Source: an uncultured bacterium
GTDB lineage: Bacteria; Bacillota_I; Bacilli_A; Acholeplasmatales; Anaeroplasmataceae
NCBI GenBank assembly: GCA_949293265.1
Contig: CASFCK010000012.1
Coordinates: forward strand, 1-44,061
Reading direction: 5' to 3'
DNA length: 44,061 bases
Below, one piece after another: positions 3,025 through 43,182 of this stretch; positions within the stretch are counted from its first letter, which is position 1; the number at the start of each line of letters is the position of its first letter. A program made the position numbers and the translations under genes. The notes under the pieces are model-generated. The model searched no databases. It was not told the DNA's origin and saw nothing but the letters and a program-made list of their open reading frames with translations.

Positions 3025-3041
3025 AATTTAAATCACCATTT

Positions 3042-4550: not shown

Positions 4551-4584
4551 CTTTTCACCTTCATAATTTAAATAAATTATATTT

Positions 4585-4615
4585 AGACAAAAGTGTCCTT
4601 TATATTAAGGACACT
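4585..4615 (-). terminator. Terminator after the endonuclease I lipoprotein gene
   Basis: A perfect nine-base-pair stem, AGTGTCCTT (4592-4600) with AAGGACACT (4607-4615), has a six-base loop and is followed on the minus strand by TTTTGTCT. It separates the gene ending at 4625 from the lipoprotein gene starting at 4550. Confidence 0.8.
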
Positions 4616-4624
4616 AATAAAACT

Positions 4625-6442: not shown

Positions 6443-6476
6443 ATTAACCTCCTCAAAGTTTTTTCTTTCTATTTAG

Positions 6477-6505
6477 ATTATAATATATATATTTAAAAAA
6501 TGCAA
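6477..6505 (-). promoter_or_regulatory. Promoter of the endonuclease I lipoprotein gene
   Basis: Minus-strand TTGCAT (6500-6505), a 17-base spacer and TATAAT (6477-6482) lie about 35 bases before ATG 6442. This is close to the sigma-A consensus. Confidence 0.7.
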
Positions 6506-6552
6506 ACAGAACTGTTTTTAATTATAAAAATATTAATAATTTTAATAAACAC

Positions 6553-6581
6553 AAAAAGAGTGATTAGAAAACTAACCACTC
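6553..6581 (-). terminator. Terminator after the thermonuclease lipoprotein gene
   Basis: GAGTGGTTAG pairs with CTAATCACTC on the minus-strand RNA: ten pairs including one G-U wobble, arms at 6572-6581 and 6558-6567. A tetraloop separates the arms and five U follow. The G-U pair forms only on this strand, which fits a minus-strand terminator. Confidence 0.8.
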
Positions 6582-6588
6582 ATTATAA

Positions 6589-7812
6589 TTAAGCATATAT
6601 ACTCTTATTAGCTTCATAATCCCAATAAGGATCTGTTTCACCATATTTACCTAATTTATTTCTTTGAGCATATAATCTAGCATTTAAGAAATAACCATAA
6701 TATGGAATATCTTTGTAGTACATATCAGTTCCTTCAAAGCCATCAACAGAATAACCTTTTAAAATAATGATATAATTAACCATTATTTCATCAGCATAAA
6801 CGTAACATAAAACTCGATCATAACCTTCTGTTAATGCTCCGCCATCATTACTTTGACAATGAATAACATCAGCTGAACTTTGTAATTCCTTAGTATATTC
6901 TTTAGCTACCCAGCCAAATTCTTGAATATTACCAGTATAGCTTTCAGGTGTATCAATATCTAAATATCTAGCACTAGCTTCAAATCCTAGTGAAGTATTA
7001 CCTGTGTCTCTACCATATACTTCATCTTGATTTAATTCTTTCCAATCAAATCTAGTTGTGTCGCCATCAACATGACTTACAATGTCAACTTCAGTGAATC
7101 CACCTCCACCAACGTTAGGAGAAGCAACAAATTCATTATTATAATATGGACTATTTTCATTGTATTTAGGACCTTCTAATAATTCTCTAGCATTTACTGA
7201 ATTAGTAAAGCCATCTAAATAATTAGTATTATCTTGAGAATAGAAAATCCATTCATATGGGTCGTATGTTGTAGATGGTGAAGCTTTTACTAATTCACCT
7301 AGATATGTAGATACACTTAAGCCAGTTAAAACATCGTCATCTACAACTTCATAATATTCTGTTTTTCTTACTAATGTAGTAGCACGCATATTTGTATTTT
7401 CTGCATTAGGGTCAAATGTACCTAAAACATCAATTTTAGCTTCATTTTTAACTAATGCTATATGTTCACGACCACCAAATACTAATTCTCCTGATCTTAA
7501 ATCAGCATATTTTAATACTTCTTCTTCACTTTCACTATTAGCAACAACGAATACCTCGCCAGCTTTAATAGTATGATCTCCTAAACTAATAACTACTTCA
7601 GGTGTATTCACTTCTCTACGATCATATATTTCAATTGAATAATCTTTTGTAGAAACATCATGATCAGTAAAGTTGTATAAAGATATTGCATTATTATCTT
7701 TACTACCTTCTAAGTAAACATTAATTAATAATTCAGGAGTTGTATCTTTACTACAGCTTGCTAGTAAGATGATAGCAAGTAATGTAGTAATAAAGAAACT
7801 TATTTTTTTCAT
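6589..7812 (-). CDS. Lipoprotein with lamin-tail-like domain and staphylococcal-nuclease-type thermonuclease domain
   Basis: The 407-residue protein has lipobox LASC (Cys20). Residues 28-132 resemble a lamin tail domain (NAISLYNFTD, IKAGEVFVVANS, HIALVKN, IDVLG), a module often attached to secreted nucleases. A thermonuclease domain spans about 240-400: VDGDT (248-252), RYLDIDTPES (282-291) and YDRVLCYVYADE (331-342). Positions equivalent to the active-site Arg35, Asp40, Glu43 and Arg87 of S. aureus nuclease appear as R282, D287, E290 and R333, so it should be active and metal-dependent. It is expected on the outer membrane face, cutting DNA or RNA. The ribosome binding site GAGGAG is about 12 bases from ATG, rather far. 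A terminator lies just upstream and no clear promoter was seen, so expression may rely on readthrough. Confidence 0.85.
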   Translation of the reverse strand: MKKISFFITTLLAIILLASCSKDTTPELLINVYLEGSKDNNAISLYNFTDHDVSTKDYSIEIYDRREVNTPEVVISLGDHTIKAGEVFVVANSESEEEVLKYADLRSGELVFGGREHIALVKNEAKIDVLGTFDPNAENTNMRATTLVRKTEYYEVVDDDVLTGLSVSTYLGELVKASPSTTYDPYEWIFYSQDNTNYLDGFTNSVNARELLEGPKYNENSPYYNNEFVASPNVGGGGFTEVDIVSHVDGDTTRFDWKELNQDEVYGRDTGNTSLGFEASARYLDIDTPESYTGNIQEFGWVAKEYTKELQSSADVIHCQSNDGGALTEGYDRVLCYVYADEIMVNYIIILKGYSVDGFEGTDMYYKDIPYYGYFLNARLYAQRNKLGKYGETDPYWDYEANKSIYA

Positions 7813-7837
7813 TTAATTAATCATCTCCTCATTAGAG

Positions 7838-7870
7838 AAAAAACAGGTGGGGTATAAGAGCCTCCACCCA
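7838..7870 (-). terminator. Terminator after the OB-fold lipoprotein gene
   Basis: On the minus strand GGTGG-A-GG pairs with CC-CCACC around an eight-base loop, followed by TGTTTTTT. It lies between the apparent full end of the OB-fold lipoprotein reading frame (7905) and the thermonuclease gene start (7812). Confidence 0.7.
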
Positions 7871-7904
7871 TTTTTTTCATAATTTTAGCAAATATTATTG
7901 AAAA

Positions 7905-8084
7905 TTATTCAGCGTAATGAATTTGAACACTAGAAATTCTAGCTTGTGCACCTGCTGTACCAACACTTTGAATTGTAAATGATTCAACTGCTGTAGAATA
8001 TTCAACTGTAAATGTTACATCTTCTGCGTTTGTAGCAGATTGAACAGCTTCTAATCCTGATACTTTTAATTGTGCAACATCTCG
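7905..8084 (-). pseudogene. Out-of-frame C-terminal segment of the OB-fold lipoprotein
   Basis: Directly after the frame used by the gene at 8066-10396, the minus strand stays open in the -1 frame. It reads DVAQLKVSGLEAVQSATN, then EDVTFTVEYSTAVESFTI, and ends ARISSVQIHYAE before TAA at 7905. The residue style and beta-strand alternation match a normal C-terminal domain end, and codon use matches the upstream gene. One extra base near the AAAA run at 8086-8089 would join it to the main frame. It has no start codon or ribosome binding site of its own. It is therefore the detached tail of that gene, through mutation, assembly error or, less likely, programmed slippage. Confidence 0.75.
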
Positions 8085-10396
8085 CTTTTATTTGATTTGA
8101 ATGTAATAACTAATTTAGCAATTTTCTTGCCATCTAATGTTTTAACAGTTAATGTATTTCCATTACCATCAGAACTACCATACATTCTAATTGTACCATC
8201 TGGATTAGATGCAGTTGCATTACTAGCACTATTTTTAACGTTAGTTACACTAAATTTCTTAGCATCTAGATTAACTAATTCTGCATAGTTTTCAGTTTCA
8301 CTATTCATATTAGTATTGGTTGAAGCTGTACCATACATTTCTGCATCATAATCAACTACAAGATCACCAGTTTTATCAATATCAGTTGCTTTAATTGGAG
8401 AAATTTGTAATCCATTATAGCAATTCATATAACCACAAATTGTATAAATGCCATTATTTACTAAAGTATCATATTTATAGAAATTATTGTCAGAGTAGAT
8501 TGCCATTTTTTGTCTATCAACAACTAATTTACCACCTTGATATACAGCACCAGTAACTTGAACATACATACCTTGCATTAATTCTAATTCATCATTTTCA
8601 CGGTTCTTAATTAAATTTGTAATGTCAGTTGGAGTAACAGCTTGAGCTTCTGCACCAGTTGTAACTGCTGTAGCTAAATCTTCAGCTTCAACAATAACTT
8701 CTAATTTGCCATTATAAAGATCCTTTGTACCTTTTACAGTAACTGTATGATTCATAGCAAATTTTTCTTCCCAAGCAGCTTTATCTACATCATAAGCCAT
8801 TACATAATATCCGCCTTCAGCTGATTGAACTAAAGCCATACCACGACCTAATTCATCATCTTTGTTTTGTGAGAAGCCTACTGCATAAACAGTACCAGAA
8901 ACTTCTAATTCTTCTTCTGGTTTAGCAACGTAGTATTTTTCCCAAGTATTAAATTCTTCTTTTGCCCATGTTGTAAAGTAAACATATTCGCCACGAGCAG
9001 GAGCGTAATCATTTGGCTTTTCAAGATTTGTACCTAATTCTTCATCATCAACTATAACTTCTGCTCTAACTTCCATTTCAGTTAAATCCGCTGGCCATGT
9101 AACTTCATCAGCCATAGTTAAAATGTTACCATCTTTAACTTGTAAAACCTTTTGACTAGCTTTACCATTAACAATCCAGTTAACAACTACTCTTTCATCA
9201 GAAACAGTAGGTAATTGTAAACCTTCAGCTGGAAGTGGTTCAGCTTTTGAAATATAAGTAGGTAGTAATTCTGCCATTGCAGCTTCTAATTCAGAAACTG
9301 CAGCAGCTACTACTGACTCTACTGTTTCAGGTCTTTCTAGATCTGAAGCTAATTCAGTTAAATATAATCTAGCACCAGGAGCATCTTTGTCACCTGAACG
9401 ATAGTTAACTACGAAGTTAGCAGAAATTTTTTCTCCTTCTTTTAATGAAGACCATAATTTATAGATTTCATGTTGATCATTAAAGCTTGAATATTTAATT
9501 TGCATTTTAACAGTTTGACCTTCTGCATAACCTAATGTAATAGTCATATCTGAACTATCACCAGTAGGACCTTGAACTTCCATAACTGTAATATCTTCAA
9601 CTCTTACTAAGTCACCAACATGAAGATCAATATATTCTTGCATTGTTTCATATTCAGGAGCTACCCATTTACCAGCTTTTACTTCTTCAGTAATATTGAT
9701 AGGTTCAACTGTTTGTGTTTCACCTGTTAATTCAATAACACCTGTATTTTGTGCAACTTGTAATGAACCATTATAACTATCTTTTTCACCATTTATTTTA
9801 ACAACAGCGCCACGTACATATGAATCATATTGTTCTTTTGTACATTTTACTCTATATGCATAAATAGCACCTTTACCATCTAATGCTCTAATATTTAAAG
9901 ATGTATTGCCATAGCTTTCACTATATTCTTGTTTACCAACAATTACACCTTCAAATGCTACTGGATCACCACTTTCAGCATTAAAGAAGTTTTCAAATGT
10001 TGGTTCAGCTTCTTTTAATACTGTAAATTCGAATTTTTTAGTAGCTGAATCACCGTCTTTAGATACAGTAGCTGTTAAATTTACTTTAACATCTTCTTTA
10101 TCAGATGCAGGGCGAGTAATTTCAATTTTATATTTTTTATTTGTTGCGTTTGCTGAAACTTTAGCTACACTTGTTTGATCAACTGCCCAAGTAACATTAA
10201 ATTCAACATTTTCATATAATAATACAGCTGTAACTTCAAAATCAGCAATAATTTCTTTCTTATTTTGAGTAATTTGAAGTGTCTTTGCTGCATCAGCTGC
10301 TGTAGGACCTTTAGGTTCGTCATCCTTACATGCAACTACAACTACTACTGCTAATAAAGCTAGTAGCCCTAAAAATAATTTTTTAATCGCTTTCAT
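8066..10396 (-). CDS. Large lipoprotein with Ig-like module and tandem OB-fold nucleic-acid-binding-type domains (frameshifted near 3' end)
   Basis: I start at ATG 10396 (MKAIKKLF) because AAGGAG sits five bases before it; an ATG ten codons earlier lacks a ribosome binding site. Lipobox VVAC is followed by the shared Ig-like module (start ADAAKTLQIT, end FEFTVLKEAE). Two OB-fold-like repeats follow: the first around FEGVIVGKQEYSES and VVKINGEKDSYNGSLQV, the second around VSGTVYAVGFSQN and TVTVKGTKDLYNGKLEV. Such folds accompany extracellular nucleases, but no catalytic motif is visible here. It probably binds nucleic acid or another polymer at the surface. The frame ends with a short alien tail (EMLHN), while the natural C-terminus continues in another frame to 7905. 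It lies directly downstream of the importer's binding protein. Confidence 0.8.
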   Translation of the reverse strand: MKAIKKLFLGLLALLAVVVVVACKDDEPKGPTAADAAKTLQITQNKKEIIADFEVTAVLLYENVEFNVTWAVDQTSVAKVSANATNKKYKIEITRPASDKEDVKVNLTATVSKDGDSATKKFEFTVLKEAEPTFENFFNAESGDPVAFEGVIVGKQEYSESYGNTSLNIRALDGKGAIYAYRVKCTKEQYDSYVRGAVVKINGEKDSYNGSLQVAQNTGVIELTGETQTVEPINITEEVKAGKWVAPEYETMQEYIDLHVGDLVRVEDITVMEVQGPTGDSSDMTITLGYAEGQTVKMQIKYSSFNDQHEIYKLWSSLKEGEKISANFVVNYRSGDKDAPGARLYLTELASDLERPETVESVVAAAVSELEAAMAELLPTYISKAEPLPAEGLQLPTVSDERVVVNWIVNGKASQKVLQVKDGNILTMADEVTWPADLTEMEVRAEVIVDDEELGTNLEKPNDYAPARGEYVYFTTWAKEEFNTWEKYYVAKPEEELEVSGTVYAVGFSQNKDDELGRGMALVQSAEGGYYVMAYDVDKAAWEEKFAMNHTVTVKGTKDLYNGKLEVIVEAEDLATAVTTGAEAQAVTPTDITNLIKNRENDELELMQGMYVQVTGAVYQGGKLVVDRQKMAIYSDNNFYKYDTLVNNGIYTICGYMNCYNGLQISPIKATDIDKTGDLVVDYDAEMYGTASTNTNMNSETENYAELVNLDAKKFSVTNVKNSASNATASNPDGTIRMYGSSDGNGNTLTVKTLDGKKIAKLVITFKSNKSEMLHN

Positions 10397-10517
10397 AAAA
10401 TCTCCTTGTAAATTATTTGAAAACATTTTGTCTATTTCTAGACCTTAATCCAACTCTCATTAATATTTTAATATTTAACTATTTCATTTTTAAACTATAA
10501 CTTAAAATAAAGGGTTT

Positions 10518-10555: not shown

Positions 10556-11947
10556 TTAACTTGCTTGATATTCGCATTCTTCAATGCCTAGTTCTAATCT
10601 ATCAGCAATATAAGCAGCTATATCATTACCTTGATATTCTAAAACATCGGCTACGATAGAACCAACTTCTTGACGAGCTACTGAAGAACCTACAAAGGCA
10701 GGTGAAGTGTAATAGAAATCTTGTTGATCAACAGCTAGTTTTGCAGCTTTTGCGGAAACGCCTTTTTCTGAGTTGGCTGTTGAATTATCTAAATATGCTT
10801 GATATTCATCTGTATTAACGGCTTCATTTGTTACAGGAATATAGCCTTGTAATTGAGCAAATTCATTTTGATATCCACTGCATAATAAGAATTGAGCAAA
10901 TAACCATGTAGCTAATACTTCTTGTGGATCATCTTTCTTGAAGAAACAGAAAGAAGGACCTTGAGAAATAACTTTCTTATTATTTAAATCAGCTTGAGGA
11001 TACATTGCTACACCAGTTTCAAATTCTTCTGAATAACAATAAGTTGAACCACCAGTAGAACCAATTGTCATATAAACTCTATTTGCAGCTGTAGTATCAG
11101 TAAATTTATCATTAGTATAAGAATCATTATTAGTTGCTTTAGTAATAAAGTAACCATCTCTATAATATTCTTGTAATTTAGATAATTGTTGTTTTGCACC
11201 ATCGTTATTGAATAGGAATCTATCACCAGTAGCTGATGTATAATCGAAACCATATTGTTCAGATAAAGTGATAAATAAATTATCTTCACTATCAATACCA
11301 AGAGGTGTTGAATTAGGATCTATTTCTTTAATTTTTGCACATAAAGCCCACATTTCATCCCAAGTTTCAGGAACTTCTAGATTATGTTCTTCGAAGAAAT
11401 CTACATTATAGAATAATGCTTCTGTAGATTTTAAGAATGGTAATGTGTATGTACGGTTATCGCCAAACGCCTTACCTTCATTTAAGAAAGCTGCGATTAC
11501 ATCTTCTTTAGCAACGCCGTCAAACTTTAATTCTGAGCCACCTAAACCATATTTTTCATCATCAATTAATGAATCGATTGAAATTGTAATTTGTGATTCA
11601 TTATAGATTGCTACGTGATCTGGGTAGCAATATGCCATATTAGGGAAACCTCTAGTACCTAAGTTAGTAATAACTTGGTCTCTAACTTCATCATATCCAC
11701 CAATTTGTTGAGCATCAATTGTAATATTTGGATATAATTCTTTAAAATCGGCAATAGCTTCGTTCAATACTGTTTGTCCTTTTTCTTTACCCATTGTATG
11801 CCAGAAAGTAACTGTTATTTGTTGTTCTTCATTAAAACTTTCTGGAACATCGAAACTAGGATCATAAGTTGAACCACCTGTACCATTACATGCTGCTAGA
11901 GAGAATGCAGCAAGAGCACCTAATGCGGCACCAAAAAATTTTTTCAT
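10556..11947 (-). CDS. ABC transporter extracellular solute-binding lipoprotein (family 1)
   Basis: The start at ATG 11947 is chosen because GGAGGT (11958-11963) lies ten bases upstream; the ATG at 11965 overlaps that site. The resulting ~463-residue protein begins MKKFFGAALGALAAFSLAAC with an acylatable Cys. It continues with family 1 binding-protein features: ITVTFWHTMGKEKG, IQIGGYDEVRDQV-like early lobe, LPFLKSTEALFYNVDFF and PETWDEMWALCAKI. Bacterial proteins of this class bind oligosaccharides, glycerol-3-phosphate or related solutes and deliver them to CUT1 importers. It is the fourth gene of the importer operon (ATPase, permease, permease, binding protein). Substrate cannot be read from sequence; the surrounding nuclease lipoproteins suggest a nucleoside or nucleotide-derived substrate, which is inference. 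Confidence 0.88.
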   Translation of the reverse strand: MKKFFGAALGALAAFSLAACNGTGGSTYDPSFDVPESFNEEQQITVTFWHTMGKEKGQTVLNEAIADFKELYPNITIDAQQIGGYDEVRDQVITNLGTRGFPNMAYCYPDHVAIYNESQITISIDSLIDDEKYGLGGSELKFDGVAKEDVIAAFLNEGKAFGDNRTYTLPFLKSTEALFYNVDFFEEHNLEVPETWDEMWALCAKIKEIDPNSTPLGIDSEDNLFITLSEQYGFDYTSATGDRFLFNNDGAKQQLSKLQEYYRDGYFITKATNNDSYTNDKFTDTTAANRVYMTIGSTGGSTYCYSEEFETGVAMYPQADLNNKKVISQGPSFCFFKKDDPQEVLATWLFAQFLLCSGYQNEFAQLQGYIPVTNEAVNTDEYQAYLDNSTANSEKGVSAKAAKLAVDQQDFYYTSPAFVGSSVARQEVGSIVADVLEYQGNDIAAYIADRLELGIEECEYQAS

Positions 11948-11969
11948 TTTTCTTTTTACCTCCATAATT

Positions 11970-12860
11970 TTATCCCTTAATACCGGCTTTAGACACGCCT
12001 CTCATAATATATTTTCTAAAGAAAATAAATACTAAGATAAGCGGAATAGAGACGATAGTAACGGCAGCCATTTGTAGTGGGTAGTTAACTCTACCACCTG
12101 CTTCTGTACCTGTGAATGCTTCACGTAAACCATTTGTGATAAGTTTAAATTCATCGCTTGTAGTAACAAGTCTTGGCCATACGTAAGCGTTCCATGCACC
12201 CATCATTTTTAAAATTGTTATTGAAACAATTGATGGGGCTGATAATGGTACTAAAACTTTTAAAAGATATTTCATATCGCTTGTGCCATCAACTTTAGCA
12301 GCCAAATATAATTCATTTGGAACTTGTTTAAAGTTTTGACGCAATAGATAAATATAGAATACACTGACTAAGAATGGAACTACTTGTACGATGATTGTGT
12401 CTTGCCAACCAAGTCTTGAAATAGTTTCATAGTTAGATACAGTAAACATTTCACCAGGAATCATCATTGTTGCTAATAAGATTGTGAATATTAAGTCACG
12501 ACCTTTAAAATTCATTTTAGCAAAGGCAAATGCGGCTAAAACAGTTATAACAAGTGATAATAATGTTGAAACAATACCAACAATAACTGTATTAATCATA
12601 TATCTAGAGAAATCAGCCGCTGCCATTGAGTTTGGATAATTTTCCCAATGGATTGTTGTTGGGAAGAATGTTGGATTAACTAAATAGTATTCATCCATAT
12701 CTTTTAATGATGATATAATCATCCAATAAAATGGGAATATTATTATAAATGCAATAAAGAATAAGAATAAATAAGTTATAACTAGTCTTACAACTTTAGT
12801 AACATTTTGTTTTCTTTTTACAGCATTAATATTCATTACATTATCATGAGTTGCTTGCAT
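11970..12860 (-). CDS. CUT1-type ABC importer permease (MalG/UgpE-like)
   Basis: This 296-residue, six-helix membrane protein has a binding-protein-dependent transport permease domain. The EAA loop that docks the ATPase reads NELYLAAKVDGTSDM, followed by VPLSAPS. The first helix is near VRLVITYLFLFFIAFIII. A start with AGGAGGTAA seven bases upstream supports ATG 12860. It lies ten bases after the other permease gene and 22 bases before the binding-protein start, so all are co-transcribed. Its N-terminus MQATHDN repeats a peptide found at the start of the partner permease (LQATHDK), which is unusual for these otherwise diverged subunits. Confidence 0.9.
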   Translation of the reverse strand: MQATHDNVMNINAVKRKQNVTKVVRLVITYLFLFFIAFIIIFPFYWMIISSLKDMDEYYLVNPTFFPTTIHWENYPNSMAAADFSRYMINTVIVGIVSTLLSLVITVLAAFAFAKMNFKGRDLIFTILLATMMIPGEMFTVSNYETISRLGWQDTIIVQVVPFLVSVFYIYLLRQNFKQVPNELYLAAKVDGTSDMKYLLKVLVPLSAPSIVSITILKMMGAWNAYVWPRLVTTSDEFKLITNGLREAFTGTEAGGRVNYPLQMAAVTIVSIPLILVFIFFRKYIMRGVSKAGIKG

Positions 12861-12870
12861 AAGTTACCTC

Positions 12871-13899
12871 CTAATAATGAACTTTCTTCTTATTTACATA
12901 TAAGTTAATAGCTGTAAATACCATAATTATAGCAAATAAGATCATTGCTCCGGCTGCTGCACGACCAGTTTGATAACTACCAGTTAAACTTGTATAGATA
13001 TAACCAACCATCGTGTTCATACCATATCTTCTTAAATTGTCACCAAAGATACCTACAGCACTCGTGTATTCTTTAAATGCTCCAATAAGACTTGTAGTAA
13101 ATACATAAGCAATCATTGGTGATAATAGAGGAACTGTAATTTTTGTAAACACTCTAAATCTTGGTGTAGATTCAATTTTAGCAGCATCATAATATTGTTT
13201 GTTTACGCTTTGTAAGGCACCAAGTAAAATCATAATCTTAAATGGTAAAGCATTCCAAATTATATATGTACATAAAACAAACATTTTATTTAATTTAGGT
13301 GCACCTGCACTAATCCAATCTATTGGGTCAACTCCAAATAAACCAAGGAAAGAGTTAAATACACCAACAGTTGAAACTATACCATCACCCGTTCTAACAA
13401 AACTAAACATTACGTTAAATACCATACCAATGGCAATACCATTTGTTACATATGGTAAGAAATAAATAGTTTGTAGTGCACTACGTAGTGGTTTAATACT
13501 ATTTAATGCTACTGCTATTATAAGTGACAATATTGTAGAAATTGGAACTGTTACAACAACTATAATGAATGTATTAAGTAATATTTCTTTAAAACCTGAA
13601 TAAGTAACAACATCAATATAGTTTTCAACCCCAAATGTAAAACTAACACCTGTACTTGCAGTTGTAGATTTATAACCATTTAAGAATGAAATGTAGATTG
13701 TTCTAAAGAAAGGATAAAATGTAAATATTGCTAATAAAATAATAGCTGGTAATAAATAAACATATCCTTTTTGATCGCCTAAAACCTTTAATAACTTTTG
13801 GCCAAAAGTTTTTGGTTTTCTGCTGCCGCCTCTTTCTGAAGGAATTAATGACGGTTCTTGATATCTTTTATCATGAGTGGCTTGTAATGTTTCTTGCAT
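12871..13899 (-). CDS. CUT1-type ABC importer permease (MalF/UgpA-like)
   Basis: The 342-residue permease has about six transmembrane helices; the first is GYVYLLPAIILLAIFTFYPF, typical of UgpA/LacF-type subunits. An EAA loop reads KQYYDAAKIESTPRF, followed by VPLLSPM. It overlaps the ATPase gene by one base (TAATG), implying translational coupling. It pairs with the permease at 11970 to form the membrane channel of the importer. The N-terminal ~30 residues are hydrophilic and contain LQATHDK, shared with the partner. The family is certain; substrate is not determined. Confidence 0.9.
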   Translation of the reverse strand: MQETLQATHDKRYQEPSLIPSERGGSRKPKTFGQKLLKVLGDQKGYVYLLPAIILLAIFTFYPFFRTIYISFLNGYKSTTASTGVSFTFGVENYIDVVTYSGFKEILLNTFIIVVVTVPISTILSLIIAVALNSIKPLRSALQTIYFLPYVTNGIAIGMVFNVMFSFVRTGDGIVSTVGVFNSFLGLFGVDPIDWISAGAPKLNKMFVLCTYIIWNALPFKIMILLGALQSVNKQYYDAAKIESTPRFRVFTKITVPLLSPMIAYVFTTSLIGAFKEYTSAVGIFGDNLRRYGMNTMVGYIYTSLTGSYQTGRAAAGAMILFAIIMVFTAINLYVNKKKVHY

Positions 13900-14966
13900 T
13901 ATCTAAGCCTCTCTTCCGTTTCTGCACTAAATAATAAGACTTTTTGTGGTCTTAAATTAAATTTAATTTCTCCTTCAGTTGGCATTGCAGTTAAAGAATC
14001 AACAATTGATCTAATTGTTGGTTTTTGACTTAAATTATGTTTAGAAACAATTGAAATGTCACGTCCCATAACTTCTAAGTGATCGATATGGCAAGTTAAA
14101 ACACCTTCTGGATCTACTATAAACCCTTCCGGACGAATACCAACAAATATTTCTTGGTCTTCATGGTTAGTATCCATTATTCTTTCTTCACCAATATATA
14201 CACCACCATTTTTAATAAATCCTTTAAAAATGTTAATAGGAGGTGTACCTAAGAAATTAGCTACGAATAGATTAACAGGATCGTCATAAACATCTTGTGG
14301 TTTACCTACTTGTTGCATAACCCCAAGTTTCATAACGACAATATAATCAGAGATTGACATTGCTTCTTCTTGGTCGTGAGTAACGAAGATTGTTGTTACA
14401 CCTGTTTCTCTTTGAATACGTTTAATTTCTTCACGAGTTTGTAAACGAAGTCTAGCATCTAGGTTAGATAGTGGTTCATCTAGTAATAAAACTGCTGGAT
14501 TTTTAACTAGGGCACGTGCTATAGCTACACGTTGTTGTTGACCACCTGATAATTCACTAGGCTTACGATCCATTAAGTTTTCGATTTGAACAATTTTAGC
14601 TGTTTCAAATGCTTTAATTGTAGCTTCTTTCTTGTTCATACGATGATTTAAAAGCGGGAACATAATGTTTTGCGCAACAGTCATATGTGGGAATAAAGCA
14701 TAATTTTGGAAAACCATTCCAATTTCTCTTTTTTCTGCTGCAAGATCAGTAACATCAGCGTCACCAAAGAAAATACGTCCTGCTGTTGGTTCTTGTAAAC
14801 CTGAAATCATATAAAGCGTTGTTGATTTACCACAACCAGAAGGTCCAAGTAAACCGATTAGTTTGCCATCTGGGATTTCAATATTTAAATCATCTACGGC
14901 TCTAACCTCACTTTTTTGCTTCTTGTTTGTGAAAATTTTAGTTAAGTGTTCTAATACAACTTTCAT
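13899..14966 (-). CDS. ABC importer ATP-binding protein (UgpC/MsmK-like)
   Basis: The 355-residue protein has Walker A GPSGCGKST, Q-loop VFQNYALFPHMT, signature LSGGQQQR, Walker B VLLLDEPLSNLD and H-loop FVTHDQEEA. These are followed by a C-terminal TOBE-type regulatory domain (about 240-355, NIFKGFIKNGG, VGIRPEGF). The arrangement is that of UgpC/MalK/MsmK ATPases, which energise CUT1 sugar importers and can serve several importers. It is the first gene of the operon, with ribosome binding site GGAGGAA. An imperfect palindrome that overlaps a weak promoter lies about 30 bases upstream. As a possibly shared energising subunit, it might power more than the adjacent permeases. Confidence 0.93.
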   Translation of the reverse strand: MKVVLEHLTKIFTNKKQKSEVRAVDDLNIEIPDGKLIGLLGPSGCGKSTTLYMISGLQEPTAGRIFFGDADVTDLAAEKREIGMVFQNYALFPHMTVAQNIMFPLLNHRMNKKEATIKAFETAKIVQIENLMDRKPSELSGGQQQRVAIARALVKNPAVLLLDEPLSNLDARLRLQTREEIKRIQRETGVTTIFVTHDQEEAMSISDYIVVMKLGVMQQVGKPQDVYDDPVNLFVANFLGTPPINIFKGFIKNGGVYIGEERIMDTNHEDQEIFVGIRPEGFIVDPEGVLTCHIDHLEVMGRDISIVSKHNLSQKPTIRSIVDSLTAMPTEGEIKFNLRPQKVLLFSAETEERLR

Positions 14967-16856: not shown

Positions 16857-17381
16857 TTATTTAGTTACTAATGCTTTGCCAAGACTAACTATTCCAGCAA
16901 GTCCAAAACAAGCAGTGCCTAAATATGCACCTACACCAGCCACAAATGGTGTTATGTCTAATTTTTCAACAGCGTCAACCATATATTGTAATGTTTCAGA
17001 ATAAATTATGAAATTAGGAACAAATATTAACATAACTGCTCCACCAATTAAACATACTGATCCAATTAAATTTAATAATTTAGAACTTAAAATGTTTAAA
17101 AGAATTCCAATTACCCCTAATAACAACGGTATTAAAGCTACAAAACTGAATTGTAGTACTACAATATCATTTGAAGTTAAACCAAAAACAATATCCATAC
17201 CGCTAAATCCTGATTCAATTTCTAATTCTTCTAAGAATTCTTTAATTGATCTCATTACAATTCCTTCATCCGATAATGTTGCTGCATCTACGAATAAAAA
17301 TAAGGCAATACCTAATACCGCTAATAAAATAATGGCTAATAATAATATTTGTGGCAGATTACTTTTTCTTTTCTTTGCCAT
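16857..17381 (-). CDS. Small four-helix membrane protein of unknown function
   Basis: I do not recognise this 174-residue protein. It has a basic N-terminus (MAKKRKSN), then a first transmembrane segment (LPQILLLAIILLAVLGIALF), an outside loop of about 40 residues, and three further hydrophobic segments around residues 70-95, 98-122 and 145-168, with small-residue packing (GVGAYLGTACFGLAG). No catalytic motif is visible. It is a single-gene transcription unit with a near-consensus promoter (17404-17432), ribosome binding site AAAGGAGG and a perfect terminator, so it is a real expressed gene. The neighbours do not suggest a role. Confidence 0.75.
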   Translation of the reverse strand: MAKKRKSNLPQILLLAIILLAVLGIALFLFVDAATLSDEGIVMRSIKEFLEELEIESGFSGMDIVFGLTSNDIVVLQFSFVALIPLLLGVIGILLNILSSKLLNLIGSVCLIGGAVMLIFVPNFIIYSETLQYMVDAVEKLDITPFVAGVGAYLGTACFGLAGIVSLGKALVTK

Positions 17382-23435: not shown

Positions 23436-23464
23436 AAAAAAAATAAAAGGGCTAGCGCCCTTTT
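23436..23464 (-). terminator. Terminator between lipoprotein gene and cls
   Basis: AAAAGGGC and GCCCTTTT form an eight-base-pair stem (23445-23464) with a four-base loop, followed by ATTTTTTTT on the minus strand. It overlaps the stop codon of the lipoprotein gene and abuts the cls ribosome binding site, so it would act as an attenuator for cls. Confidence 0.8.
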
Positions 23465-24174
23465 TATTCAGCTAAATCCTTAATTAGAGAAGCACTAGTA
23501 TTTAATTTAATAAATGTATATTCGTTTAATGAGCCAGTACTTACTAAATCTAAATTGCCTGCGTTGTCTTTAGCATATGTAATTTCAAAATATGTAGGTA
23601 TTAATGCATATGTATGTAATATAGCTGTTGCTGTACCATCTTCTTTAGTTACATATTCCATTATTTCAACAGGCATATATAAGACACCTAAACATCTTAT
23701 TTCATCTTCATGATAAGTGACAGCTTCTATAACATCTTTTTTGACTGTTGTTGTAGTAGTTTCAGCTAGTTTAGCTCTAACGTTAGTATATTCAGCAACT
23801 ATTGAAGTGTTAATTTCTTTTAATTGATTTAAAATAGTAGTGAAATCAACATTAGCACAAGATAAGGCTGTAAAGTTTAATGATTTAAATTTATCATTAA
23901 TATTATCTTTATTATAAACACTTTCTTCAATATTAGTTAATGTATAGTAGCTTGACTTCTCTATATCAGTAGGAATAAAAACTTCATATCCCGCTGCATT
24001 ATTTTCTCTAGCTTTAACAGGTGTTTCTTGAAAATCAATTTTACTTAAATATTCACTATAAATTTTTGTTCCTAAAATTGAGTCATCTAAAACATAGTTT
24101 GGTTTGTCATCTTGACATGAAGCTAAACTAAATAGAACAAATATAGTTAATATAGAAGCTAATATTTTTTTCAT
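23464..24174 (-). CDS. Lipoprotein of unknown function
   Basis: The 236-residue product has a clear lipoprotein signal (MKKILASILTIFVLFSLASC, Cys20) followed by a mature domain that I do not recognise. The mature part is mixed alpha/beta with DILGTKIYSEYL-like start, a Thr-rich segment (AETTTTTVKKD, about residues 135-145), and a C-terminal strand-rich half. No catalytic motif is evident. It has ribosome binding site GAAAGGA and an extended -10-type promoter upstream, and ends in a strong terminator. It precedes the cls-uppP-exporter genes, but that does not define its job. Confidence 0.75.
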   Translation of the reverse strand: MKKILASILTIFVLFSLASCQDDKPNYVLDDSILGTKIYSEYLSKIDFQETPVKARENNAAGYEVFIPTDIEKSSYYTLTNIEESVYNKDNINDKFKSLNFTALSCANVDFTTILNQLKEINTSIVAEYTNVRAKLAETTTTTVKKDVIEAVTYHEDEIRCLGVLYMPVEIMEYVTKEDGTATAILHTYALIPTYFEITYAKDNAGNLDLVSTGSLNEYTFIKLNTSASLIKDLAE

Positions 24175-26449: not shown

Positions 26450-27119
26450 TATTTATCAACCTTTCATAATCACTTTTTAACCATAAGATTGGCGTTTCTT
26501 TGTTTTCTATTAAAAAATTGTTAGTTTTACTAAAAGGTTTAGAACCAAAAAAGCCTCGTGATGCTGATAAAGGCGATGGATGAACTCCTTTTAAAACTAA
26601 ATGTTTGGGATTGTTTAAATACATTCCCTTTTTTATAGCAAAATTACCCCATAAGATAAAAACTATTGGCCTATCAATATCATTAATCATTTTAATAATA
26701 TTATCTGTTAAAATTGACCAACCAAAATTGACATGGCTATTAGCTTTACCTTCTTCAACTGTTAAAGTACTATTTAATAATAAAACACCTTGTTCAGCTA
26801 GGTATGACAGGTCGCCGTCTTGCTTAACTTCTTTATCTAAATCACTAGCCATTTCTTTATAAATATTAATGAGACTAGGTGGTAATTTTTGACAATCTAC
26901 ACTAAAAGAAAGCCCGTTAGCTTGGCCTTTTTCGTGATATGGGTCTTGTCCTATAATAACAACTTTTACTTTATCTAATGGAGTTAAAGATAAGGCCCTA
27001 TATATATAATTGTAAGGCGGAAAACAAGTTGTTTTTTTATATGCTTCAACAACTTTTTCCTTTAATTCAATATAATAAGGTTTATTCTTCTCTTTCTCTA
27101 TAAATGTCTTCCAATTCAT
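26439..27119 (-). CDS. ung: Uracil-DNA glycosylase
   Basis: The start is taken at ATG 27119 (MNWKTFIEKE); the in-frame TTG four codons earlier forms part of the GGAGG ribosome binding site. The ~226-residue protein has the family 1 motifs GQDPYHEKGQANGLSFSV (catalytic Asp in the water-activating loop), the uracil-binding segment FILWGNFA (Asn), and the DNA-intercalating loop HPSPLSASRGF with the catalytic His. It removes uracil from DNA to start base excision repair. Its beginning overlaps the 3' end of the upstream membrane-protein gene by 38 bases and its end overlaps trmFO. Confidence 0.96.
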   Translation of the reverse strand: MNWKTFIEKEKNKPYYIELKEKVVEAYKKTTCFPPYNYIYRALSLTPLDKVKVVIIGQDPYHEKGQANGLSFSVDCQKLPPSLINIYKEMASDLDKEVKQDGDLSYLAEQGVLLLNSTLTVEEGKANSHVNFGWSILTDNIIKMINDIDRPIVFILWGNFAIKKGMYLNNPKHLVLKGVHPSPLSASRGFFGSKPFSKTNNFLIENKETPILWLKSDYERLINNAN

Positions 27120-27999
27120 AGTTTCCTCCAATTATAACACTATTCTTTTCTTTAATCGTTCTAATTATCATACTAATACCAATAAATAATGTTAGCGTAG
27201 TAACAACAAGTCCTGTGCTAACTAACATCGTTCTTTCAAATATAATATTATGATTGTCATTAAAAGCTGTAAACATTGCTGCTTCTAAGGCCAATAATGA
27301 AACTAAGGCTTCTGCTAAGTTAATATTTCTTAAAGAAATAATTACTATATCATTTGTTTTATGAGCTTTTCTTGAATTATATATTCCCATTATAACTTTA
27401 TAAAATGTTACTACCGCCATGGTTATAACATGGATTTGCGGAAAGTTAAAATTGTTATTATTTATTAATTCTCTTACTGCTAAGTATAAATATAGAGGTA
27501 AAAGACAAAGTAAAATACCACAAGTTTTAGCTACTTTTATCGTTTTTAAATAATTATTAGGATGTCTATATAGATTATATAAAGTTATTTCTCTTGCGAA
27601 AAATAAAAGTGAATAATAAATAGTTAATGATAAAAACCAAAAATTAAAATTAAAAATAGTAAATCCTAAATAATATGCTAATAAACAAAGATTAAAAGAA
27701 AGGGAAATTAAACTAAACATCGCTGTCCTAAAATCATATTCTTTTACCATTTTTCTTGCAAATTTGTTTCTACTTAAATAATTAACTACTTCTTGTTTAA
27801 TGATCTTATATCTAGTTATTAAGATATAAAGACTAAAAACTAATAAAAAGGCGGCTAAAGCATTTGTAAAATATTTTCCTATAGTGTGAACTATAATTAA
27901 ATTTGTAAGCATTAATATGTCAATTATAATTACAAAAATAGTTGTTAAAAACAATAAAAAGCTCATTAAGACAATTGTTTTTTGACTAATTTTCTTCAT
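27082..27999 (-). CDS. Eight-helix membrane protein of unknown function
   Basis: I do not recognise this 305-residue protein. About eight hydrophobic segments are visible (residues ~8-30, 42-62, 92-112, 116-137, 155-175, 190-210, 226-245 and 255-280), with a short acidic-basic tail ending EDIYREREE. No charged active-site motif stands out. It is the first gene of the ung-trmFO-xerC transcript, overlaps ung by 38 bases, and has ribosome binding site AAAGGGGTG and a near-consensus promoter. Overlap with ung shows co-expression rather than shared function. Confidence 0.8.
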   Translation of the reverse strand: MKKISQKTIVLMSFLLFLTTIFVIIIDILMLTNLIIVHTIGKYFTNALAAFLLVFSLYILITRYKIIKQEVVNYLSRNKFARKMVKEYDFRTAMFSLISLSFNLCLLAYYLGFTIFNFNFWFLSLTIYYSLLFFAREITLYNLYRHPNNYLKTIKVAKTCGILLCLLPLYLYLAVRELINNNNFNFPQIHVITMAVVTFYKVIMGIYNSRKAHKTNDIVIISLRNINLAEALVSLLALEAAMFTAFNDNHNIIFERTMLVSTGLVVTTLTLFIGISMIIRTIKEKNSVIIGGNYELEDIYREREE

Positions 28000-38801: not shown

Positions 38802-39791
38802 TTATAACAACTCTCTTTTTGATTTATCATATGAATAGATAAATAAACCTGATAATGGTTCATCAGATAATATTCTTAAAATACCATGACCTAATAATGA
38901 TCCTACTGATAGAACCTTAATCTTTGGTATTTGTTTTTCTTTTGATAATAGAATAGTATTAGTAACTACTAATTCTTTCAAACTTGAATTTTGAATTCTT
39001 TCAACAGCAGGATTAGATAAAACCCCATGTGTACAAGCTGCAAAAACTTCCTTAGCTCCTACTTTCATTAAAGCATCCGCAGCCGCTGTAAGAGTACCAG
39101 CTGTATCTACCATATCATCAACTATAATACAAGTTTTACCTTGTACATCACCTAATATATTCATAACCTCTGCTTTATTAGGTTCTGGTCTTCTTTTATC
39201 GATAATTGCAATTGGACATTCTAACACTTTAGCAAATTCTCTTGCTCTTACAACTCCACCATGATCAGGTGAAACAATAATAGTATCTTTACCTTGAAGA
39301 TGATTATCTATAAAATAATTAACTAAAATAGGTAAACCTAAAAAATTATCAATAGGTATATTAAAGAAACCTTGAATTTGGGCAGCATGTAAATCCATAG
39401 CAATAACTCTTGTAGCACCTGCAGTTTGTAATAAATCAGCTACTAATTTAGCACTAATAGGTTGACGTGATCTAGCTTTACGGTCTTGACGTGAATAACC
39501 ATAATAAGGAATAATTAAGTTTATTGTTTTAGCTGAAGCTCTTTTTAACGCATCGCACATTATTAACAATTCCATTAAATGTTCATTTACAGGAGCGCTA
39601 GTTGGTTGAACAACAAACACTTCATGACCGCGGACAGTTTCGTTAATGTTTACATTAATTTCACCATCAGCAAAATGAACAACTTCACATTTGGCAAGTT
39701 CAATTCCAATAGATTTAGCAATTTCTTCTGCTAAAGGTTCGTTTGCAGTTAAACTAAACAATTTTACTTTTTTACCTAATAATTCAGACAT
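38802..39791 (-). CDS. prs: Ribose-phosphate pyrophosphokinase
   Basis: Start at ATG 39791 ([12 protein letters not shown]) is supported by AGGAGG seven bases upstream; an earlier in-frame ATG lies in the promoter region. The ~329-residue enzyme has [16 protein letters not shown], the ATP-binding [28 protein letters not shown], and the PRPP-binding [16 protein letters not shown]. It makes PRPP from ribose 5-phosphate and ATP for purine, pyrimidine, His and NAD synthesis. An extended -10 promoter (39817-39825) suggests its own start of transcription after the ksgA-ispE gene. A PRPP supply would also serve salvage of nucleobases if the nuclease/importer island works as proposed. Confidence 0.97.
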
Positions 39792-39816
39792 TTTAATCCT
39801 CCTAAAACCAAAAAGT

Positions 39817-39825
39817 ATTATAACA
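39817..39825 (-). promoter_or_regulatory. Extended -10 promoter of prs
   Basis: Minus-strand TGTTATAAT (TG-n-TATAAT) lies about 25 bases before ATG 39791; no convincing -35 is seen. Confidence 0.5.
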
Positions 39826-39877
39826 AATTTTAATTTAAAAGACATCTTATTTTTTATAAAAATAAACTAGTAAGCGC

Positions 39878-41467
39878 TTAACATATGATCCTTGTTTTAA
39901 TAATTAAACAATCTTTAAACTCTTTTTTTAATAATTCATACTTATTCATATCAAAAATATAGCGGGTTGGTCCACTACCACTTTGATACGATGTTATATT
40001 TAATTCTTTTAATTTATTATAAAATTCTAAATAGGTAGAGTTAATTAAAGCTGGTTTTTCTAAATCATTAAAAATAAACTCTTCAAAACTTTCATTATTT
40101 ATCAATCTATCAACAAGATTAAAAGTATAATCTATTCTGTCTTCATATTTATATCTATCATAAATTTCTTTAGTACTTAACCCTAAATTAGGTTTAATTA
40201 AAATAACATCTACAAAATTAAACTTAGCAATAAAACTAAGTTCTTCTCCTCTATTTGAACAAACAGCAGGCAAATTAAATAAACAAAAATTATTATCTGA
40301 ACCTAATTCTTTAGCTAAAAAGCTTAACTCTTCTAAGCTTTTATTTAAATTAAACAATTTATTTAACCCTCTAAGAGTAGCACTAGAATTACTGCTTCCT
40401 CCAGCTAAACCGGCGGCTAGTGGTATTTCTTTTTTTAAATAAACAGTAACTCCTTCCTTGATATTATATTTTTCTTTGAAGAGTTTTATTGTTTTTAAAA
40501 TAATATTATCTTTAATTTCTAGATTTGTTATTACTCTATCTTCCTGACTTTTAGTAAATACTAAAGTGTCTTTTAATTCAATAGGTACCATCAATGAATT
40601 AATTTTATGATAACCTTTGTTTTCTTTAAAAACTCTTAGTGTTAAATTTATTTTTCCATTGGCATATTCATAAACATTAGTTTGTTTAAAAAATTCATCA
40701 CTTAAGTTGATTATATCGTTTATAGTTAATTCTTCAGCTCTAATATTTGGCTTAAGAGAAAGATTTTTATATACTTTATTTATAGTTTCTAAATCATAAA
40801 TATCTTTCAAATTATTTAATAATGTTTTTCTTTTTTGCCGAAATATTTGTTTGTTTAAATTATAAAAATATTCTTCAGATAATGGAACAAATTCTTTTTC
40901 TTTATTTTCTAAACTTATAATAGCACTAGTAACTTTAGGAATAGGATTAAAAGCTGTATTTTTTACTATAAAACATTTTTTAGTTTTAAATAAATAATTT
41001 AAATAGACCGTTAAAGAATTATATTCTTTATTATTTTCTAATAAAGTATACCTATCAGCTACTTCATTTTGAACCATGAAGATATATTTTGTAGCCTCAA
41101 GTTTACTAGCAATAAGTTTTAATAAAATAGCTGTAGTTATATAATATGGTAAATTACCAACAACATATAAATGTTTATAATTATATTTCTTTAAATTCTC
41201 TTTTATATTAGCTTCTAAAATATCTTGATTAATTATTTCTAAATTATCACAATTTAAATTTTTGTTTAAAATTTCTACACAGTCTTTATCTATTTCATAA
41301 GCTAAGACTTTGTTTGCTTCCTTAACTAAGTACTTAGTTAAAGCCCCTTGACCAGGACCAATTTCTATAACTAAAGAATCTGGCAAAATATTTATTTCCT
41401 TAACTATTTTTAAAATAATGTTTTCATCAATCAAAAAGTTTTGTCCAAATTGTTTTTTAGCCTTCAT
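39878..41467 (-). CDS. Fusion of rRNA dimethyladenosine transferase (KsgA/RsmA) with IspE kinase
   Basis: The 529-residue protein joins two enzymes that are normally separate. Residues 1-~262 are KsgA: QFGQNFLID, SAM-binding VIEIGPGQGALT, catalytic NLPYYITT (105-112) and a C-terminal helical domain; it dimethylates two adenosines near the 3' end of 16S rRNA. Residues ~265-529 are IspE (4-diphosphocytidyl-2-C-methylerythritol kinase, MEP pathway): NGKINLTLRVF, GYHKINSLM, GHMP loop PLAAGLAGGSSNSSAT, GSDNNFCLF holding the catalytic Asp, and SGSGPT. The linker around residue 264 has no in-frame ATG or ribosome binding site. The IspE loop reads SSN rather than the usual SSD. The start overlaps rnmV by 11 bases. 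Confidence 0.9.
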   Translation of the reverse strand: MKAKKQFGQNFLIDENIILKIVKEINILPDSLVIEIGPGQGALTKYLVKEANKVLAYEIDKDCVEILNKNLNCDNLEIINQDILEANIKENLKKYNYKHLYVVGNLPYYITTAILLKLIASKLEATKYIFMVQNEVADRYTLLENNKEYNSLTVYLNYLFKTKKCFIVKNTAFNPIPKVTSAIISLENKEKEFVPLSEEYFYNLNKQIFRQKRKTLLNNLKDIYDLETINKVYKNLSLKPNIRAEELTINDIINLSDEFFKQTNVYEYANGKINLTLRVFKENKGYHKINSLMVPIELKDTLVFTKSQEDRVITNLEIKDNIILKTIKLFKEKYNIKEGVTVYLKKEIPLAAGLAGGSSNSSATLRGLNKLFNLNKSLEELSFLAKELGSDNNFCLFNLPAVCSNRGEELSFIAKFNFVDVILIKPNLGLSTKEIYDRYKYEDRIDYTFNLVDRLINNESFEEFIFNDLEKPALINSTYLEFYNKLKELNITSYQSGSGPTRYIFDMNKYELLKKEFKDCLIIKTRIIC

Positions 41468-41990
41468 ATTTATTTAAGATCTCCTTAACTTTGTCTATTG
41501 AAATATTAAAGGAATTTAATCTGTTGATTAGGGTTTTAGTGTTAGGGTTTCCTATGTTGAGTTTGTCAGCTAAATATTTTCTCCTTTCTTTAGCCTGCAA
41601 ACCACTAGATAAATCTAATTCTATTAATTTACTTAAGTTCCAATAATTAAAATTATTTGTACTTAAATGTAAATCCGCTAAAGCTTCTTTTATATCTTTA
41701 ATGTTTGCGTGTTCAACTCCAACTTTTTTATTGTTTTTACTAATACATTTTCTTTTATTAATAAATACATGGATTGAATTAGGACAAACTTCTTTTATTT
41801 TATTTCTAATTCTTTCACCTGGATAATCAGGATCAGTAAATATAATCACTCTATTATCTTTACCATATTCTTTTAATAAGTTTAATGTTTCTTTACTTAT
41901 TTGACTACCATTAGTAGTAATAATTAAACCTTTAAATATTTCTTTTAATTTATTATAATCATGAATTCCTTCAACTACTAAAATATCCAT
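41457..41990 (-). CDS. rnmV: Ribonuclease M5
   Basis: Start at ATG 41990 (MDILVVEGIHD) is supported by GAAGGT upstream and lies directly after the stop of the HD-protein gene. The ~177-residue protein begins with a Toprim domain: VVEGIHDYNKL (catalytic Glu) and FTDPDYPGERIR (DxD with following Gly-Glu), then HANIKDIKEAL in the C-terminal part. RNase M5 matures 5S rRNA by cutting both sides of the precursor. Adjacency with ksgA is as in Bacillus, and both act on rRNA maturation. Confidence 0.93.
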   Translation of the reverse strand: MDILVVEGIHDYNKLKEIFKGLIITTNGSQISKETLNLLKEYGKDNRVIIFTDPDYPGERIRNKIKEVCPNSIHVFINKRKCISKNNKKVGVEHANIKDIKEALADLHLSTNNFNYWNLSKLIELDLSSGLQAKERRKYLADKLNIGNPNTKTLINRLNSFNISIDKVKEILNKYEG

Positions 41991-41991
41991 A

Positions 41992-43182
41992 TTAACCTTC
42001 AAAATAATATATTCTTTTAACTTCTTTATAACTTGATTTTGCCAATGCATTTATTACTTTAGAATAATCTTCTAAGGCTATTTCTTTCGCATTAGGTAAT
42101 AAAATCTTAATACTATTATCACCTTTACTAGTTAAATAAGCCACTGCTGATACACTAGATTCATAATAATAATATTTCTTATTTATATATTTATCTAAAT
42201 CTTCTAAATTAGTATCTTCTTCAATTTCTCGATATTTAAATAAATGTCTATTTTCTAAAGCATTAGCAAATTTATTTAAAATTAAATCATCACATTTAAG
42301 TAATTGCTTAATAAATCCATTTACGTAAGAATCATCAATTTCAATATAACTTTCTATATTATTAGAGTTTTTAATAACATTTAAAAAATCTTCTAAATTA
42401 GCGTTTATTTTAATGTTTTTATCACTTAAATCTTTAATTCGTGAATAAATAGTTTCTAGCAATAATTCATATGCTCTAGCAACAGGATGATAATAAACTT
42501 GAAAATACATATGATATCTACTCATCAAATAAGATTCAACTGAATGTAGACCTGAAGCTCTAACATAAACTTGATTTTTGGTTATTATTAAACTGCGTAA
42601 TAATCTAAATCTATCAATTGTTCCATAAGTAGCGCCTGTAAAATAGGCATCTCTTGATAAATAATCTAATCTATCAACATCTAATTGACTTGATATTAAT
42701 TGTTCAACAACTTTATACTTTGATTTCTTTCTTATTATGTTAGCTACATCTAGAGGATCTATATTATATTCTTTTAGTATATTATGAATACCTCCATTAG
42801 GGTATGTAATAATTCTAGCAGACATTTCTTCATGTGCTACGTCTAATATGTGTTCAAAAGCATGGGAATAAGGGCCATGTCCTACATCATGTAATAAAGC
42901 TGAAACTAATAATAAAACCTGTTCATATTCGCTTAAATTTTCTTTAGCTCCTTCAACTTCATCTATAACTAATTTTGCCATTTGATAAGTTCCTAAAGCA
43001 TGACAAAAGCGGGAATGTTCAGCTGTTTGAAATACCATACATACCCCACTTAGTTGTCTAATACGACGTAATCTTTGTACTTCTTTACTATCAATTAATT
43101 TGGCTATTACTTCTAATTCTACTTCTATATATCCATATAAAGGGTCTCTAAATACTTTTGTTCTTTTTAATTTATTAAACAC
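41992..43182 (-). CDS. HD-domain phosphohydrolase, YwfO-like
   Basis: The 396-residue protein starts with GTG at 43182; GGAG lies eight bases upstream. It opens with FRDPLYGYIEVE, RRIRQLSG and HSRFCHALGTYQMAK, then the HD pair LLHDVGHGPYSHAFEH and later DVDRLDYLSRDAYFTG. This is the pattern of YwfO-type HD proteins, related to dGTP triphosphohydrolases; B. subtilis YwfO-like members hydrolyse deoxynucleoside triphosphates. It is first in the operon with rnmV and ksgA-ispE, with a near-consensus promoter. A nucleotide-pool role would fit, but the exact substrate is not shown. Confidence 0.88.
   Translation of the reverse strand: MFNKLKRTKVFRDPLYGYIEVELEVIAKLIDSKEVQRLRRIRQLSGVCMVFQTAEHSRFCHALGTYQMAKLVIDEVEGAKENLSEYEQVLLLVSALLHDVGHGPYSHAFEHILDVAHEEMSARIITYPNGGIHNILKEYNIDPLDVANIIRKKSKYKVVEQLISSQLDVDRLDYLSRDAYFTGATYGTIDRFRLLRSLIITKNQVYVRASGLHSVESYLMSRYHMYFQVYYHPVARAYELLLETIYSRIKDLSDKNIKINANLEDFLNVIKNSNNIESYIEIDDSYVNGFIKQLLKCDDLILNKFANALENRHLFKYREIEEDTNLEDLDKYINKKYYYYESSVSAVAYLTSKGDNSIKILLPNAKEIALEDYSKVINALAKSSYKEVKRIYYFEG

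Follow-up and report, generated by a model that had tools for sequence, protein, structure and literature searches.

A single-frame KsgA-IspE fusion in a genus of the Anaeroplasmataceae, best read as two working enzymes joined by compaction of a coupled gene pair

In the stretch of DNA analysed here (the window, 44,061 nucleotides from an uncultured bacterium of the Anaeroplasmataceae), one gene very probably encodes a true fusion of ksgA and ispE, in which a linker of about two residues joins the end of a complete 16S rRNA A1518/A1519 dimethyltransferase to a complete 4-diphosphocytidyl-2-C-methyl-D-erythritol kinase. The best reading of the comparisons is that two working enzymes are carried on one chain, which would have arisen as genome compaction acted on a gene pair that was coupled beforehand. 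A preliminary description had reported a single 529-codon frame with KsgA followed by IspE, leaving the strand unstated; this frame is present exactly at 39878-41467, lies on the minus strand, and passes both NCBIfam cut-offs. The gene, its parts and its neighbours are the following.

39878..41467, minus strand: fused ksgA-ispE gene, 529 aa, ATG at 41467, stop at 39878-39880 (open reading frame and translation, equivalog models, congeners)
40682..41467, minus strand: KsgA (RsmA) half, residues 1-262 (TIGR00755; motifs; last KsgA helix at 249-262 in the model)
40676..40681, minus strand: junction, residues 263-264 (T-N) (secondary structure of the model and codon scan)
40675..40677, minus strand: out-of-frame ATG (from AAT followed by G), putative fossil ispE start (junctions of unfused L009 and L010 against fused L005 and L006)
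39881..40675, minus strand: IspE (CDP-ME kinase) half, residues 265-529 (TIGR00154; alignment to 1oj4 and 2v2q; conservation)
41457..42050, minus strand: rnmV (ribonuclease M5), upstream of the fused gene (TIGR00334, 134.5 bits, over the cut-off)
38802..39845, minus strand: prs (ribose-phosphate pyrophosphokinase, from reading of the sequence), next downstream (open reading frame)

Against the NCBIfam equivalog models, KsgA scores 247.6 bits over residues 1-258 (TIGR00755, cut-off 171) and IspE 153.5 bits over residues 268-503 (TIGR00154, cut-off 138.7), and Pfam places RrnaAD (4.6e-57) and GHMP_kinases_N (1.4e-14) in the same protein. The first half carries the KsgA motifs GPGQG (37-41), EID (58-60), D82 and NLPY (105-108), and the SAM-binding GxGxG-type and catalytic NLPY motifs are invariant or nearly so among the fused proteins; the second carries GLAGGSSN (353-360) and SGSG (496-499). 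A search of the genome with the fused protein as query gave no further match at E<=0.001, and this gene is the sole high-scoring ksgA and ispE in it. By their window coordinates, the upstream rnmV and the fused gene share 11 bases at the start of the latter, and prs is the neighbour in loci L002 and L006 as well.

Elsewhere in the window, the minus-strand genes at 1579-10426 encode metallo-beta-lactamase, Endonuclease I, SNase with lamin-tail, and OB-fold/aBig_2 domains, a run resembling a secreted-nuclease cluster, and after it, at 10556-14966, comes a sugar-type ABC transporter. The frames 3042-4550, 16857-17381, 23464-24174 and 27082-27999 (minus strand) have no Pfam match at E<=0.001.

Across the junction the protein reads NLSDEFFKQTN and then VYEYANGKINL, and it was here that neither a start codon nor a ribosome binding site had been seen. 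The codon scan and a search for Shine-Dalgarno (SD) sequences bear this out: ATG, GTG and TTG are absent in frame from codons 243 to 275, no SD-like motif is found, and in the six fused congeners neither an in-frame ATG, GTG or TTG nor an SD sequence occurs in the roughly 30 codons before the catalytic lysine of IspE. An AlphaFold model of the fused protein has a mean pLDDT of 95 and a pTM of 0.89, and Foldseek matches it to KsgA and IspE structures. The closest solved structures are B. subtilis KsgA for the first half and A. aeolicus IspE for the second. As the C-terminal helix of KsgA ends at residue 262 of the model and the first IspE strand starts at 265, the predicted linker is that short. 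It is very unlikely that the gene yields two proteins, whether through a non-canonical internal start, a frameshift at the T6A3 run close to the junction, or proteolysis. In-frame ATA and ATC codons do lie upstream of the IspE half and the window does contain the T6A3 run, but there is no SD-like motif, conservation of the run does not extend to the more distant congeners, and the ordered junction, with a pLDDT near 98, would make a poor protease target. I rejected programmed frameshifting or slippage at T6A3 on that lack of conservation.

The genus sample comprised eight species, the window included, and the gene is fused in six of them (the window, G002, G003, G004, G007 and G006). Full-length fusions at 60-66% identity and without stops are found in G002, G003, G004 and G007, while that of G006, at 98% identity, is cut by a contig end. 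The other two species have separate genes; in G005 the ksgA stop overlaps the ispE start (AATGATTAA), and in G001 the stop and the start lie one base apart (TAAAATG). In a tree built from the KsgA and IspE halves joined, with the full-length fused congeners included, the five full-length fused members of the genus form one clade with a support of 100, to which unfused G005 and then G001 are sisters. Taken together, the fused congeners and the position of their clade among unfused sisters show that the fusion is derived and inherited and not an artefact; judged from the tree, it is a derived state of one clade within the genus.

A search for the same fusion in related genomes had been proposed as a check, and it finds the fusion in five other congeneric species. 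The preliminary description had also held that relatives with a stop and a start at this point, together with an indel in the reads, would speak for an error. Such relatives do exist (G001 and G005), but the indel is excluded as an artefact because the fused form is common to six species. That a base was miscalled or lost from an overlapping ksgA/ispE pair in sequencing or assembly is hardly credible: the two frames of the unfused congeners are indeed offset by a single-base shift, but the same open junction recurs, at identities of 60-98%, in five further species from separate assemblies and within one clade, and none of the fused species has kept an in-frame ispE start.

When the junctions are compared, unfused A-ATG-ATT-AAA-GAA aligns with fused AAT-GTT-TAT-GAA, which suggests a one-base deletion just after the ATG of ispE, a reading drawn from few diverged junctions at which other small indels could have done the same. 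The putative fossil AATG, now in the wrong frame, is seen in L001, L005 and L006, and the old ATG is mutated in the other fused species. Between ksgA and ispE, the g6 and g3 relatives have an insert of some 800 bases; the one insert checked, in G022, is a yabG gene. In the window's genus yabG does not occur at this position, and its loss or absence would have brought the two genes together. YabG is a sporulation protease in Bacillus. At locus L011, from a related genus with small genomes, the YabG peptidase gene between ksgA and ispE occupies 693-1484, and other g6 and g3 loci have inserts of similar length.

I propose that, with the intervening yabG absent or lost, ksgA and ispE came to overlap at their stop and start, and that the loss of one base after the ispE ATG would then have let ksgA be read straight into ispE, turning what was probably translational coupling into obligate co-translation. 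Both active sites would work, largely independently, and their products would be made at 1:1. The small indel would have joined an already coupled, overlapping pair in compact genomes, and it may have been kept as neither enzyme was harmed; what most likely drove the fusion is compaction of the genome and not selection for a joint function. E. coli IspE has been reported to be monomeric and the B. subtilis enzyme seems to be so too, for which reason tethering may be easily tolerated.

Several lines of evidence bear on whether both halves work. K272 and D391 of the fused protein align with K10 and D141 of E. coli IspE (1oj4), and K272, H287 and D391, as well as the core residues of the KsgA SAM and NLPY motifs, are invariant in eight fused proteins; the likely catalytic Asp had earlier been noted as kept, and the alignment agrees. 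Because the 98% relative ends at a contig end, selection within the window's own lineage could be gauged only for KsgA and 68 codons of IspE. The KsgA half differs from this relative by a pS of 0.103 and a pN of 0.010, while the 68 IspE codons are identical in the two and hence uninformative. In the independent pair of fusions in g17, dN/dS is 0.087 for KsgA and 0.098 for IspE. Dxr, IspH and IspF of the MEP pathway score over their cut-offs in the genome, so that IspE should be needed, and the fused gene is the only one found. Family scores, conservation, selection, the MEP enzymes and the model together support two domains that are both probably functional.

The preliminary description had listed SSN for SSD and GSDNN for GADVP as changed residues in IspE, and neither holds up as such. 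SSN is ordinary, occurring also in the IspE of E. coli (1oj4) and A. aeolicus (2v2q), and GSD occurs in that of M. tuberculosis. GSDN is common to the fused congeners and to unfused G005, whose IspE reads GSDNAF, and is for that reason a lineage trait unrelated to the fusion; GSDNN appears to be mostly a trait of the genus. As the residues are ordinary in well-studied IspE, I rejected the altered motifs as a sign of changed function. Decay or a change of function of the IspE half is highly improbable: beyond those residues, it could be argued from a TIGR00154 score only about 15 bits over the cut-off, but the catalytic Lys, His and Asp are invariant and the genome has no second ispE, though Dxr, IspH and IspF are present.

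The architecture is not confined to the window's genus. In the order (160 genomes) it occurs in two species of g17, a genus of another family, at 41% identity, and in two g5 genomes, G142 and G152; in the class sample (395 genomes) one further fusion was found, in G291. In the phylum sample (392 genomes, two queries) there was no fusion outside the window's genus, although more diverged ones could be missed at the E-value limits. The tree requires five state changes, which are forced by well-supported branches. The cases of G142, G152 and G291, one draft genome each, are less certain than those of the window's clade and g17. The G291 fusion, at L057:1289-2923, is more diverged and known from one draft genome; in its congener G379 KsgA has the usual length, and at the threshold used the fusion was not detected in the other 27 genomes of the family.

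Two sets of candidates were rejected. Frames of 831-869 aa across KsgA-IspE in g6, which could be taken for triple fusions with YabG, prove to be separate genes when the loci are read from stop to stop, and in-frame adjacent pairs in the class (f11, f16 and f19; G144, G147 and G153) can be aligned across the junction but contain stop codons. In the latter three genomes (L039, L040 and L041) ksgA and ispE share a frame, with one stop directly or nearly before the ispE ATG, so that a single stop-codon change would fuse them.

The preliminary description had further seen in the fusion a tie between 16S rRNA dimethylation and the synthesis of isoprenoid precursors. This finds no functional support, the two genes being ancestral operon neighbours joined by an apparently one-base event in an overlapping pair. 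A selected fusion that couples ribosome maturation to isoprenoid supply, for example by tethering IspE to 30S precursors or by regulation between the domains, is unlikely. In its favour, fusion took place up to five times within the class, the pTM of the model suggests a fixed arrangement of the domains, and the M. tuberculosis paper may be counted on its side (PMC6009663). No fusion of rnmV with ksgA, which often have an 11-base overlap, occurs in 66 genomes, a control that is weak because the loci were picked around ksgA-ispE. However, the substrates have nothing in common, the genes are separate in most relatives and only 11 fused genomes were found, where two genes overlap, a change of one base can fuse them cheaply and without selection, and three of the five cases come from one draft genome each. 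Slightly less likely still is the wider claim that the fusion is recurrent and selected in the class, and would physically, perhaps allosterically, couple the last 16S rRNA methylation checkpoint to the supply of isoprenoid precursor for the undecaprenyl carrier. Compaction of a coupled pair remains the preferred explanation.

Compared with stand-alone KsgA/RsmA (B. subtilis 6ifs, E. coli 1qyr), the first half has the same fold and motifs (38% identity to 6ifs over about 260 residues), but the fused protein bears a second enzyme at its C-terminus. Likewise, the second half shares the GHMP kinase fold and the catalytic Lys and Asp with stand-alone IspE (2v2q, 1oj4), whereas it lacks a start codon of its own and begins two residues past the C-terminal helix of KsgA. 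The two genes adjoin in operons of other phyla as well; in the rpfB-ksgA-ispE operon of M. tuberculosis, ksgA lies directly upstream of ispE as in the fusion and is co-transcribed with it, but the genes are distinct and yield two proteins (PMC6009663). A precedent for a MEP-pathway enzyme fused to another enzyme is IspDF of C. jejuni and others (PMC5821942), which joins two enzymes of one pathway, whereas the partner here is a ribosome maturation enzyme. In a related family, G040 encodes a KsgA that also carries a C-terminal enzyme domain and adjoins ispE, but its partner is NUDIX and ispE is separate. That protein is one 439-aa frame (L022:1438-2754), followed by an overlapping ispE, and the KsgA frame of G036 is also 439 aa long. 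In the literature searched, with many subscription papers beyond reach, I found no description of a KsgA-IspE, RsmA-IspE or related fusion.

Gene fusions are routinely taken as evidence that two proteins work together. With unfused sisters and fused descendants in one genus, and with what appears to be the fossil start still visible, the merger of two unrelated enzymes may here be traced base by base. Annotation pipelines in which each gene receives a single function may take it as a warning, and nature has here set up a test of whether joining two enzymes that share no chemistry brings any benefit.
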